Assembly (NCBI GenBank): GCA_963921795.1
Contig: OY997653.1
Location: 28,567,994-28,631,993, forward strand
Direction of reading: 5' to 3'
DNA length: 64,000 nt
DNA from: Nannobrachium achirus
Lineage: Eukaryota > Chordata > Actinopteri > Myctophiformes > Myctophidae
Part shown: one piece after another, positions 5,601-61,177 of the stretch
Numbering within the stretch: the stretch's first letter is position 1
How the letters are laid out: the number at the start of each line of letters is the position of its first letter
Program-made: the position numbers and the translations under genes
The notes under the pieces: model-generated
Database searches by the model: none
Told to the model about the DNA's origin: nothing
Seen by the model: the letters and a program-made list of their open reading frames with translations, nothing else

Positions 5601-8600
5601 AAAAAATATATTCTCCAATGAATTCCACAGGTGCATAAGAGGATCACAGTCAAATCAATGGAGCTGAAAATGGCCAAATGTTGGGGGCAATGCACCATTT
5701 CTAGTTGCAGAGCTACACCTCCAATATATTATGCTGAAACTAACGCTTTACAAAATTCACGGTTCGGTTTGGTTCGATATTTTGCTGTCACGGTTCGATA
5801 CTTTTTCGATACAAAAAATAAACAGAAATGTCCTTGATTTATACATTTATTGTCTCCACCAGCCGAAGGCTGAGGGAGAGTATGTTTTCCCCTCCGTCCG
5901 TCCGTGCGTCCGTCCGTCCGTCCGTCCGTGTGTCCGTGTGTCCTCGCAGTTTGTGTGCAGCTAATCTCAGTCACCGTTGGCCCGATCGCTGCCAAACTGA
6001 GCACACACACTCCCTGGATGCCAATCTAGAACCTCTGCCCCACATTTTTCAAATCAGCCTCATGGTGGCGCTATAACAGGCCGATTTGTGTGGCCTGGTT
6101 GTTACCAGCTAATCTCCGGCGCCGTTGGCCCGATCGCTGCCAAACTGAGCACACACACTCCCTGGATGCTAATTCAGAACCTCTGCCCCACATTTTTTAA
6201 ATCAGCCTCATGGTGGCGCTATAACAGGCCGATTTGTGTGGCCTGGTGGAGACCTGTGCTCGGAAGAGCACTGCTTCTAGTTTATTTTTGTTTAACTTTG
6301 AAAAATACGGCCCGCAACCTCTAGGGTAGTGATTCTCTAAGTGTGCTAGGGGTCCTTGAGGGGGTTCCAGGGGAATGTGGATGTGGAGTGGTATTGTATT
6401 GTTCGGTACAGGGTCTTTCAGTTCGGTATTCGATATTCGGTTCGATATGTTGCATCCCTAGCTGAAACGGCTCGTCCCAAATAAGATTTAAAAAAACTAA
6501 CCAAAAAAGGTATCTCAGTCCTAAATCCCTGGCCTTTATGAAATGGCTCAATTTGTGGAAGTGGTACGGGGGGTTAAAGTGTTATGGTTTGAGGTTTATT
6601 CCCAGTGCCTTGCTGGCACCAAGATACTGAGTTACCTCTCTTGGAGAACAAATTATAATCCAAATGATAAATTCTAATGTGCTGGCTCACATTTCCAATT
6701 GAGGAGACACTCTTATAAGTGGATGTGTGCATGACTGACCTACACAGTCAAGTTTAAACACTGCGACGGACGGCCCAATGAGCCCTGTTTCAATTGATGA
6801 CTCGGGACTGGATTCTTGGCAGTGCTTGACAGTAAACAAGTACATTTACTTGAGTAGTCTATTTAAGTACATTATTTGAGTATTTACGTTAGGTTACAAA
6901 TGTTGGAGACTTTCAGACATTTCAAAGACATATTTCGACTCCACTATATTTGTAGGAAGGGAAAGAGGACCTTATGAATTAACCACTTAAGCTCCATTTC
7001 AAATATCGTGAAAATAATAATAGCTCTGCTTTTTTCACTAATATTTTACTTAAATTAATTTAATTTAATTTTTAGGTATTTATTTATTTATTTGTGTATT
7101 CTATTTATAGATATATAAGAGCGGTGCTGGCGGCTGTTACCATGGCGGCGACGCCATACGGGCATATCAGAGACATCAGACAGACAGACATTCCGTGGTA
7201 ATACAGTATATATATATATATATATATTATATATATATATATATATATATATATATATATATATATACATACATACATACACACACACACACACACACAC
7301 ACATACATACAGTATACTTTTTAATACTTAAGCATTTCTAAAAGCAACTACTCCATTACTTTAACTTGAGCACAAATTTGACTTGTAGTCCAGTAATATT
7401 TGAGCAGGAGTACAGTATCTATACTTTGACTCAAGCACCGGGGTCGAGTTCTTTGTCCATTACTGACTGTTGGGAGCAGCAGGTGTGTGTGTGTGAGCCC
7501 TCTTACCGCCACAATGTGCAGGAGAACGGCCCCGCTCTTCCTCTCATCAATGCTGAAAAGGTCTTCGGGGAACTCGTGTATCGCTGAGGAGAGAGAGAGA
7601 GAGAGAGAACGTCACAGTCGCCACACATCAGCCTCATGACAGCGAGCTGCAGGGGTGTCACAAGGGGGGGAAAGTGGGACTGAGTTACTAGGGCCCAAGG
7701 TGGAGGGGCCTTAATTATTTTATACTTTAGCTATTGAAAAATTGTAGATATACAAGCTCACAGCACAGGCTTGTAGATCTGCCATTTTTGAAAAGTCGTG
7801 AAAATGTGTGCAAATCTTTGAATATATGTACTTTTTAAGCGAACATTTGTTAACTCAAATTTTGCTTCTGGGTGGTCCCTGGAACTAAATATTTTGAGAT
7901 GGAGGTCCGTGGCCAAATACATATCATTTTGGGGGTCCTGCACACTGAGCACCACTGACATAGAAACATAGGTTTTTCAAAAAACCTTAGAAGGATTTCA
8001 AATATTCAAAGACTTGCACAAATGTTCATGATTTTTTTTAGCAGATCTACAAGCTTGTATTTCTGCTATTTTTCAATAGTTAAAGCACAAAATAATGTGT
8101 TCCCAGTCTAAATGGGTTAAACCCCCTCCCCCTATGAAGAACATGCATGGGGGGCCCCGCACTGAATCCTTGTACCCAGGGCCCAGACTTTGGTGCGACA
8201 CCCCTACAGTCACCACACATCAGACGCATGACAGCGAGCTGCACACACGGCTCCCCCGCCCTCCCCCTGTGAGTGTACCGTGTGACCCCATCATGTGTGT
8301 CATTTTTTAAAAGGAGAAGTTGGTCCTGCAGGCTAAGGGCACATACAACATGAAACCAGCATGTGAACTACATCAGTGTCATTTCCACTCAGTCAGTCCT
8401 CGTCCTCCCCAGGGGTGTCGCACCAAATTATGGGGCCCTGTGTACAAGGATTCACTGCAGGGGCCCCCCATGAAGGCCCCCATGAAGGTTCTTCATAGGG
8501 GGAGAGGGTTTAACCCATTTAGACTGGGAACGCGTTATTATTACACATTATTTTGTGCTTTAACTATTAGAAAAATAGCAGATCTACAAGCTCACAACCC

Positions 8601-11600
8601 CCCATGAATGTTCTTCATAGGGGGAGGGGGTTTAACCCATTTAGACTGGGAACGCATTATTATTACACGTTATTTTGTGCTTTAACTATTAGAAAAATAG
8701 CAGATCTACAAGCTCACAGCGTGGCACCGAGTGCCACGCTGTGAGCTTGAGTGGATTATGATCCCCGCACATATCGTGCGTTTTGTGCGCGAACGGTTCC
8801 ACTTGTTACCATAGCGCACAGTTGGCTTTTTTCAATGTTTTTTCATGTAAACACTGGCGGATAAGCAGGGATACAGCGTGGCAACGGATATGTCTATTTC
8901 AATGTGGGTTTTTTTATTCGAAAGCTTGTCACCGAGTCTACAGTCTACTAGATGAGTCGCGCACAGATTGTGCACAATGCGTGCGCGTGCCCACATTAAA
9001 AGGTAAGGACAATTTGGCAGCTGCTTACTACAGCTATGTTTAAAATGGCAGCAAAATTGTTAATTTCCAATTCCGATATCAACCAATACCGATATATACA
9101 GTCAGGTTTATCGGACATCTAAAAAGAAAAAATAGTACGGGAGAGATAAAGATATCTACAGCTAGTTGGCAGTGTGACTCCTACAGTATCATCCCAAACA
9201 AAATGAAAGCTGAGGAACTACACGGAAATCCTCCAGAGAGACGAACATGCGTCGTAGTGAGCGAATGAGCAAGCTCAAACAGCTGCTCTACTTTTGGAAA
9301 AACAGAAAACATCCCGAGAGCACAGCATCTTCTTCAGCTGACACATTCACAAGACATCCCACAATGCAAAACAGTAGAGATCAAAAGGTAGTACATATGT
9401 ATAGCCACATACTGGGTGGAAAGGCTCTTGAGAACACACTGTACATTCAACTCATTCAGAGAGACAGTGCAGACATCTAGGATGAGCATGATCTAAGCTC
9501 ACCGTTTTATTTCATCTTTAATTTGATTTATCTTGGTTTGGTTCCCATCTCCATCTCTCCTGCGTTTCAGTCTTGCCACTACACCTGATCCCTCACTTTG
9601 GGGATCAATAAGGCTTTGTCTCTCAATATCTTTAAAAGGGATCTGCCAGCTTTTTCATAGGGCCATTGTTTGGGGAAGGAGCTATAACACAGGCAATTCA
9701 TATCATCATACATTAATGTCACCTAAATAATACAACAAAAACATCAGATATTATAGACCAGGCCAGGGGTAGGCAACCTTATAGACACAGGTACCAACAT
9801 TGGCACAGGGAAGTGTGATCACTGGCACACTGGCAGAAGTGTGAGAGAGAGGATTTTTATTTTAAAATCAAATATATATTTTAAATGTGGTCAATAAAAT
9901 TAAGTCATCTAATTTGCAACAAATGTCATCCTGCACATAATAATTCTACATTCATTAAAATTCTGAACTTTGACATGGGGAGGGAATCAGGGAGATAGGT
10001 GGGTTATTGCTCTGAGTCTAATGATCATTATATCAATGTCATGACAAACTAAATATGTTGGAATCTTTGATGGGGTGTCATTAAAATGTATGTTGACAAT
10101 GACATGGCACACTGACTATTTAGAAAATAAAAACATGGCAATTCATTTCAAAAAGGTTGCCGACCCCTGTTATTGACAGTATCAATATCGAGTGGGGATG
10201 GGCACTGTCAAATGAGCAGCACTACATTAGTGGTTCTGGGCATACAAACACTAACCAATGTCATCTATTCATTTCATGCCCAAGTTACACAAGACTCAAG
10301 CCGTCACAGATCTCCTGGAAATCTGAGGCAAAAGCCAAGGCTATATTAAGAGCCTGAAGTCATACAGAATTAAAGCAAGCAGGCAGAAAAAAAATCCCTC
10401 CATGCTGGGGACCCATCATCCATCATCCAGGGTCCCAGCTGGAGCACAGTGTGACTATGGTAGCACCATACGGCACGCATCGCTGGCACCACAGACACAC
10501 CGCAGAGCACCTGGCTGGAGACAGAAGTCAGCCGTCTCCCTTAACGCATTCAAATCGGGAACCATTAGTTCATGCTTTAACTATAAAATAAAATAAATAT
10601 CAGATATACAAGCTCACAGCGCGGCCATTTGTTTTAAATTCGTGAACATTTCGGCCCGATTCTATTCATGTCTTCTAAATAAATGTCTTCTAAATCCTTT
10701 TTTTCCAAAAGGTTTTTGAAAAAGGCATGTTTCTATGTCAGTGGGTCTGAAGCCATTTCATGTCAAGGACCCCTAGAATTATATGTACCGGTATTTGACC
10801 ACAGACCACCATCTCAAAATATTTTGTTCCAGGGACCCCCCTAGAAGTGTTTTAGTTAAAAATGTTGCTCAGGAAACTCTGAGAAATCTTCCCTTTCATG
10901 ATTGTTTCTTATCATACAAGCAAAGTCTTGTTTTTTTTTCTACCATTTGAGACGTTTTGTAAATGAAATAAAATGTTTTGAGTGTTTCCTGAGCATTCTA
11001 ATTCCATTTCTAAATCTCATAAACAGATCAAAATGACCTGTTAGTCATGCAAGTGTTGACTCAAGATTTTAGTTAAAAGAATATATATTCAAAGATTTGC
11101 ACACATTTTCATGTTTTAAATAGCAGATCTACAAGCTCATAGCGCAGCACTCGGTGCTTCCCCGATCTTAATGGGTTATGGGAAGGTGGGCGTCTGGAGG
11201 AGTGGCCCCCATGTGACCTGTTCTCGCTGTGCCCACGTGACAAGGTCATGGCTGTAATTTGGAGCAGCCCTACAAGACTATTTCCGCTCACTACTACCAG
11301 GGATGTTCCAAATAATCATTTGCACCCCTAGTATTGGTTTCAGTCCAATCTGGCAAAAAGGTAAGTGATCCGACCTTAAACTCCTCTCAGACAGTTTATT
11401 AGAAAAAGAGACATAACTGTCAGTATTTTTCCAAATAGTAGCCCGGATGTTTAATTTGCTAAATCGATTTTTGAACCCCCAACATTTAAAAGAAGCACAA
11501 AACGGTGTCAGAACTCCGGCGGATATTTGGTGCCCAGTGGCTATTTGCCCCCGAGCGATTATTTGGTATTTGTATCCAAAAGTCCCCTTTGAGCCGCCTT

Positions 11601-61114: not shown

Positions 61115-61177
61115 GAAAATAGCCGACCTCCAAGCTCACAACGCGGTTGGTTGTGAGCTTGGAGGTCTGCTATTTTC
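61115..61177. repeat. Palindrome family 1, isolated copy with variant stem
   Basis: GAAAATAGCCGACCTCCAAG and CTTGGAGGTCTGCTATTTTC. The stem is ACCTCC/GGAGGT instead of ATCTAC/GTAGAT. No host ends are visible. Confidence 0.88.

Follow-up and report, generated by a model that had tools for sequence, protein, structure and literature searches.

Inside otherwise unrelated transposons of Nannobrachium achirus (Myctophidae) we found a long dispersed palindrome, which we characterized in a window of 64,000 nucleotides (assembly GCA_963921795.1, contig OY997653.1, positions 28,567,994 to 28,631,993) and in the rest of this genome. On balance, it is probably a hairpin module of TTAA-flanked miniature inverted-repeat transposable elements (MITEs) that was nested into other transposons, kept symmetrical by hairpin-templated copying and lost by deletion. 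The sequence displays a TTAA element nested in the hAT-like host B, a narrow spacing between palindrome and TTAA ends, a sharp edge of the shared unit, a paired outer stem specific to each host and scattered scars in copies without the full palindrome. Host families are denoted by letters, L-numbers (e.g. L027:4179) are genome stretches outside the window and G000:C stands for contigs of the genome.

Both strands of the window were scanned with the arm AAAATAGCNGATCTACAAGCTCAC, and a full copy was defined by two arms that each match at 17 or more of 24 positions. The dispersed palindrome reported in a preliminary description of the window proved real, as 30 of the 33 full copies listed there have two such arms, all listed half copies (8/8) were recovered and a further strong half copy was found at 53266. 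The other three listed copies lack most of the right arm (8692), the left arm (33626) or the second arm, with the first interrupted by one inserted base (52851). The scan yielded 72 arm matches of at least 18/24, while five shuffles of the window under a first-order Markov model produced, over both strands, a single match of 18 and none higher. Folded as DNA, four hairpins lay 13-19 standard deviations below shuffled sequences. The weak arm hit of 19/24 at 39259 was discarded because its paralogues at 30141 and 20126 carry different sequence at that spot. The palindrome is far commoner than the window shows: in the complete genome (1,658,514,493 bases, 1.66 Gb) the exact 16-base arm core GATCTACAAGCTCACA occurs 158,789 times (80,229 + 78,560 on the two strands) and its reversed control 0 times. 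For comparison, twenty 10-kb blocks (200 kb) were taken at round positions from 16 other large contigs. These blocks held 111 arm matches of at least 18/24, making the window about twice as rich, and contained 41 two-armed palindromes (70-72 bp in 23, shorter in 17, longer in one) and 29 single arms. Scaled up, two-armed palindromes number about 340,000 genome-wide (block bootstrap 165,850-547,305). There was no Rfam match at gathering score and no tRNA in the window, the exact 22-base pattern GCNGATCTACAAGCTCACARCG was absent from viral and prokaryotic sequence collections and a literature search of open-access papers found no description of this palindrome.

Most often the palindrome takes the form of a 71-bp inverted repeat. 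From 71 exact-length palindromes, 51 were kept after thinning family A and duplicates and 49 were aligned, with L008:1484 and L051:484 left out. Treated as one 43-pair hairpin, 82.5% of the cells were standard pairs compared with 75.7% in shuffles (0/500), and 192 double-changed cells were counted where 95.7 were expected, a value reached in 0 of 500 shuffles. Positions +8 (26 of 43 paired, 23.5 expected) and +12 (25 paired, 25.7 expected) did not covary. The extent of the shared unit was determined using 23 representatives of differing flank contexts. Between-family identity was 0.8-1.0 in the core, where positions +3 to +18 are the search probe and their identity does not count as evidence, and then dropped from 0.76 at -5 to 0.46 at -7 and 0.31 at -8 (background 0.27). 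As identity falls to background past -8, the shared unit comprises about 73 bp, TGAAAATAGC..GCTATTTTCA. The edge is not produced by the search probe; 13 representatives found via the 16-base core alone gave the same edge (0.65 at -5, 0.48 at -7, 0.29 at -8). The match between the arms of one and the same copy reaches -12 (0.65), in sequence that varies by host, as in the outer stems of D (Table 1), K (AACTAGTG/CACTAGTT) and L007 (TGGGACAG/CTGTCCCA); AAACTAGTG is common to K and x. Three features are unusual: a 73-bp unit common to families with unrelated flanks, arms that vary in concert between families and scarcely within them, and an outer stem that is host-specific yet paired. A sharp edge with arm pairing continuing beyond it argues for a module passed between hosts and copied from its own stem. 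In 23 families, direct repeats at the unit edges were at chance level (mean 2.09 bp, 1.89 bp in shuffles; 128 of 500 as high), whereas inverted pairing of the flanks amounted to 3.43 bp versus 2.27 bp in shuffles (0/500).

The commonest hosts are TTAA-flanked elements, with ends of the type TTAACCACTT or TTAACCCATT. Inward-pointing matches of 14/18 or better to the end TTAACCACTTNARCCCTA were found beside 62 of 229 sites and outward-pointing ones beside 2 of the 229 (13 of 242 sites were dropped for short flanks, and sites within a family do not count as independent of each other), which again supports an origin in TTAA MITEs. Among the two-armed sites listed, the core lies mostly 42-54 bp and otherwise 87-104 bp from the TTAA end. 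Family A has one palindrome near each end, B, E and g have one and element v (L038) has two inside a long inverted repeat. The elements at 17709-17865, 19025-19184 and 41346-41537 carry TTAA at both ends, as TTAA MITEs do. The ends read CCACTT (B, g) or CCCATT (A) and lack the motif CC[C/T]T, which the excerpted text of PMC2872659 gives as the piggyBac tip; we therefore use the neutral name TTAA elements, do not class these elements with piggyBac and assign no transposase to them. Rearranged forms were also seen, namely a short tandem array derived from a family A fragment, whose units hold a palindrome arm (L006:2163-2761 and L007:54-652, overlapping, C1), a chimera of a left family A half and a right family g half joined inside the palindrome region (L025:2061-2165) and four tandem palindromes with shared arms (L035:298-473).

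Grouping of 74 palindromes gave 24 flank-pair classes, or about 15 after merging by eye. We take a number of the hosts to be hATs, this and the other class names being assigned by the type of end sequence; f, h, i and x were called hAT-like by their ends alone. Target site duplications (TSDs) of 8 bp flank D, C and B copy 2, and that of E matches at 7/8 positions (Table 1). In both window copies of hAT B, the palindrome belongs to an inner TTAA element with TTAA at each end. The genome was then searched with B minus this TTAA element and with the hosts D, h, K and L012 type minus the palindrome, the best 40 of 2,012-4,496 candidates being scored in each search. Because these searches favoured copies without palindrome, they are uninformative on the share of copies that retain it. 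For hAT B, 36 of 40 scored copies end their match at the TTAA junction, and this nesting points to TTAA MITEs as the carriers; the other 4 of 40 read across the junction, all with element pieces (only CCAC in L137). The palindrome of E looks likewise to sit in a worn relative of B's nested element, judging from its adjoining sequence. The hosts given in the preliminary description are partly wrong: the TTAA and hAT-like hosts (B, E, D) stand, with the palindromes of B and E reassigned to the nested element (B) and to what looks like its worn relative (E). What had been listed as host "MITE family C" is in fact element K (14661-14919) nested in the hAT-like element at 14552-15039, and the two copies thought to be alone have company: 30756 has the flanks of L038, and 61115 shares a flank with L024:7577 and L026:8695. 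TTAA ends were not recognised in hAT-like D, f, h, i and x or in family z. The recently spread repeat at L012:3315-3385 has flanks at 40 places (40 scored copies), the right flank being 97-100% and the left 88-100% identical. These flanks lie 71 bp apart in 39/40 and 75 bp apart in 1/40, with gaps worked out by hand and the gap sequence read in one copy; given this spacing in 40/40, no scored copy is without the palindrome. A separate palindrome, L027:4179-4249, is apparently intronic: the short intron would belong to a gene like those of oxysterol-binding proteins, whose right exon matches PF01237 (Pfam, E 2.9e-08) and whose left exon was recognised by eye. This palindrome shows only a weak 13/18 match to the TTAA end at 57 bp.

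The two arms have changed differently between and within families. Consensuses of A, B, K and f differ from one another at 22 two-sided (all paired) and 10 one-sided positions, while copies depart from their own consensus 53 times on one side and 0 times on both. With E and g added, the counts for all six families were 48 two-sided (41 paired on both sides) and 59 one-sided differences between, and 5 and 81 within; the consensuses of E and g are noisy (3 rows each), and the comparisons overlap in their families and so are not independent of one another. These counts are most simply explained if mutations strike dead copies in one arm at a time and if both arms of founders were rewritten together, or if unpaired founders failed. 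Together with the covariation described above, this pattern supports hairpin-templated copying. Template switching can create and repair hairpin stems in one event and has thus been published as a maker and mender of hairpins, which further favours this explanation, and the authors call the evidence for stem maintenance by this route circumstantial (PMC8794818, excerpted text).

Symmetry could also be preserved by function, and a possible if rather improbable alternative is that the hairpin is a cis element selected in moving copies, such as a transposase binding site, a site for a host factor or a hairpin acting in replication or as RNA, which several superfamilies would have retained or taken up. 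Such selection would fit a unit far better conserved between families than its flanks, paired changes between families with hardly any within, and TTAA ends mostly 42-54 bp away. It is further in line with the abundance of piggyBac transposase genes (952 candidates, of which 116 were scored, many falling into groups of equal score) and with the subterminal palindromes of piggyBac and piggyBat, which are bound by cysteine-rich domains of the transposase (PMC11707139, excerpted text). The hairpin is thus possibly a binding site for a TTAA transposase by analogy. The piggyBac and piggyBat palindromes resemble ours in lying near transposon ends; according to the same excerpt, however, they are element-specific and 14-19 bp long, far shorter than the 73 bp found here across superfamilies and sometimes in a central position. 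Selection for a cis function is also difficult to reconcile with hATs using other transposases, with the imperfect hairpin of the young L012-type host and with the lack of an Rfam match in the window, and core conservation is partly due to how the copies were found. The fetched piggyBac genes were considered as a candidate autonomous source of the palindrome. Non-coding DNA near all of them (4/4) contains a palindrome or half palindrome, a weak association as palindromes are so common: L127 and L131 share the same palindrome, L131 and L133 hold K copies and L130 has a half copy. TTAA ends were not recognised in the stretches fetched around these genes. Separately, a dense cluster of genes for piggyBac transposases, lying on one strand and often with long open frames, was observed at G000:C2:71346413-71843994, and piggyBac domains occur in very long open frames at G000:C18:60345001 (2,461 residues) and G000:C1:82177671 (3,951 residues).

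Copies without the full palindrome bear on whether the unit moves by itself, and 9-19 junctions were read each for D, h and K. The search with D gave 4,496 candidates; among the 40 that were scored, 38 lack the full palindrome and form a single alignment spanning the cut, with identities of 80-91%. Arm pieces with differing endpoints remain at 17/19 of the D junctions, L089 and L099 retaining only the outer stem; L108 repeats the window D locus almost exactly and has the palindrome. The small contig stretch G000:C208:30312-30847 is 99% identical to the window D region, palindrome included, and is probably an alternative haplotype or duplicate. For h, 14/18 junctions hold arm pieces, with none in L111, L112, L115 and L122, and L112 and L122 have a common, nearly clean junction. 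K shows relics at 7/9 junctions, clear pieces in L146 and L149 and only 3-4 bp out of the A/T run in L142-L145 and L148, and no clear relic in L141 and L147. Taken together, relics with scattered endpoints are present at 38/46 junctions (5 of only 3-4 bp) and absent at 8/46, where deletion is the putative origin. With the best 40 candidates scored in each search, an old empty site could have escaped. The simplest account is that D, h and K already held the palindrome when spreading and then lost it many times, which supports loss by deletion. Comparison of filled sites with their counterparts thus returned mostly scars in D, h and K, and no direct duplication was found at the unit edges. The preliminary description was right that the palindrome is no fixed part of one transposon, as its TTAA, K and several hAT-like hosts and the sharp unit edge indicate; independent mobility of the hairpin, its other proposal, is not supported by the junctions read, 38/46 of which have relics.

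We consider it unlikely that the hairpin propagates by itself between superfamilies, inserting in the middle of short palindromes of the host with no duplication of the target, possibly through template switching primed by the hairpin. Insertion of this kind would explain the host-specific outer stems, and those of K and L007 could be target palindromes; the sharp unit edge, the many unrelated hosts, the inverted flank pairing, the nearly clean junction shared by L112 and L122 and the D copies reduced to the outer stem are all compatible with it. The scattered relic endpoints speak against it, as do the lack of a candidate enzyme and of direct duplications and the finding that both supposedly hostless copies have hosts. 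If it were true, an animal nuclear genome would have been colonised several hundred thousand times by a 73-bp hairpin. The mobile hairpins of organelle genomes are short, GC-rich and present in many dispersed copies; unlike these, the copies described here lie inside nuclear transposons. A mobile DNA family of yeast mitochondria is an example from organelles (PMC4478555). Less probable still is descent of all copies from one ancestral transposon with replaced or decayed ends. Such descent would suit the TTAA-type ends and spacing common to A, B, E, g and v and the outer stem AAACTAGTG of K and x. Against it, uniform decay would not leave flanks near background 8 bp from a unit that is alike, the ends of K and of the hAT-like hosts are distinct, and separate duplications flank D, C, B and E.

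Under the preferred explanation, a TTAA-MITE module, the 73-bp unit would be the common inheritance of numerous DNA transposons, short, non-autonomous and mostly TTAA-flanked, which carry the palindrome while it would have no machinery of its own. Palindrome-bearing TTAA MITEs may have landed inside other transposons, which then amplified the palindrome; entry into the non-TTAA hosts D, K, h, f and z would have followed the same course, by analogy with the nesting in B and E. Template switching could rewrite one arm from the other and extend the stem into the flank of the host. Most new families would go back to copies whose hairpin was intact, with some advantage of such hairpins in founders, and older copies would decay one arm at a time and then lose the centre by deletion. 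Several observations weigh against this explanation. D, K, h, f, z, y and w have no recognisable TTAA ends, leaving capture by nesting an analogy there, and the arm contrast is weaker for six families than for four. Copies were found through the arm core, making its conservation partly a result of the search. The palindrome of the youngest host (L012 type) is imperfect, which speaks against the need for an intact hairpin in that host. In addition, five K relics comprise only 3-4 bp, and the evidence for template switching is indirect.

By description, the closest published parallel are the CMITEs of Acropora corals, TTAA-flanked MITEs with a 75-base internal region that is better conserved between families than the terminal repeats (PMC2872659). 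Here too, the internal unit is kept better between families than its flanks, probe positions +3 to +18 excluded. An insertion of a CMITE created a new composite element, comparable to the TTAA elements inside hAT B, and about 1,600 copies were estimated in A. millepora (PMC2872659). The excerpted text of that paper calls the origin of the internal region unknown and describes neither a palindrome nor a hAT host; our module, in contrast, is a hairpin, occurs in very high numbers and has hosts of other superfamilies including hATs. The same source names search bias as a partial cause of the conservation, and this caution applies equally to the 73-bp unit. A second parallel is the V domain of short interspersed elements (SINEs), a conserved module spread with the MER6 DNA transposon (PMC6887750, excerpted text). 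Like our unit, it is a short conserved module in otherwise different repeats that is carried by another transposon; unlike it, it has a retroposon context and is not described as a palindrome in that excerpt.

Table 1. Palindromes and their host elements in the window (positions counted from its first nucleotide).
Feature	Position	Strand	Remarks
hAT-like D, ends CAGTGTTG..CAACACTG	13871..14392	+	TSD AGAGGCAC both sides; hosts palindrome 14106-14176
Palindrome in D	14106..14176	.	outer stem GTTGCGTGT/ACACGCAAC; scars in relatives
hAT-like E, ends TAGGGATGGGACGATA..TATCGTCCCATCCCTA	13421..13858	+	inverted ends; TSD 7/8
Palindrome in E	13661..13731	.	adjoins worn TTAA-type end GGTACCACTTAAACCC, ~104 bp from core
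hAT-like B copy 1	17619..18017	-	right tip worn, end approximate
Nested TTAA element TTAACCACTTGAACC..GGTCAAGTTAA in B copy 1	17709..17865	+	palindrome 17754-17803; TTAA both ends
hAT-like B copy 2	18869..19296	+	TSD CTCTAGAC
Nested TTAA element in B copy 2	19025..19184	-	half palindrome ~19099-19139, other arm deleted
hAT-like C, ends CAGGGACATGCTGG..CCAGCACGTCCCTG	14552..15039	+	perfect 8-bp TSD CACCACAG
Element K, inverted ends TCGTCRYTGTCGGG, nested in C	14661..14919	+	palindrome 14742-14812; other K copies 35546, 53666
Palindrome in hAT-like family x, CAGTAGTTCCCAAAC	52295..52346	.	solely by similarity of ends; relative L060
Half palindrome in family i	41800..41823	-	outer stem CAAAAGAAG/CTTCTTTTG; right flank resembles L021:2229 (by eye)
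Palindrome earlier called hostless	30760..30816	.	flanks common to long-inverted-repeat element v (L038) and L003
Palindrome earlier called hostless, family z	61116..61176	.	flank common to L024:7577 and L026:8695
Family A element	12085..12632	+	palindromes 12119-12189, 12538-12588 near ends; TTAA at 12629
Family A element	22065..22619	+	palindromes 22099-22169, 22503-22573; TTAA at 22616
Family A element	27586..28141	+	palindromes 27620-27670, 28027-28097; TTAA at 28138
Family A element	18285..18778	+	palindromes 18319-18389, 18663-18733
Family A pair of shortened palindromes	7738..8072	+	7738-7788 and ~8035-8072
TTAA element TTAACCACTTGAAC..GGGTTCAAGTGTTAA	41346..41537	+	palindrome 41415-41490

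Besides transposons, the window contains an uninterrupted 668-residue frame at 48740-50746 (+) that matches the SYO1/HEATR3 family (PF25567, E 2.1e-96); its single long exon would suit an intronless gene or a retrocopy. A reading frame at 2430-2906 (-) holds exon-like pieces of what we take, from its translation, to be a sodium/calcium exchanger (SLC24-like).

This genome, in which the exact arm core is present at least 158,789 times and the hairpin is shared by families with unrelated ends, represents a natural experiment on the evolution of long DNA hairpins. The hairpin family separates founders, whose arms change together, from dead copies, which change one arm at a time and are then reduced by deletion. 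It thereby makes testable whether an internal module can promote the spread of non-autonomous elements from different superfamilies, as already asked for the coral CMITEs (PMC2872659, excerpted text).

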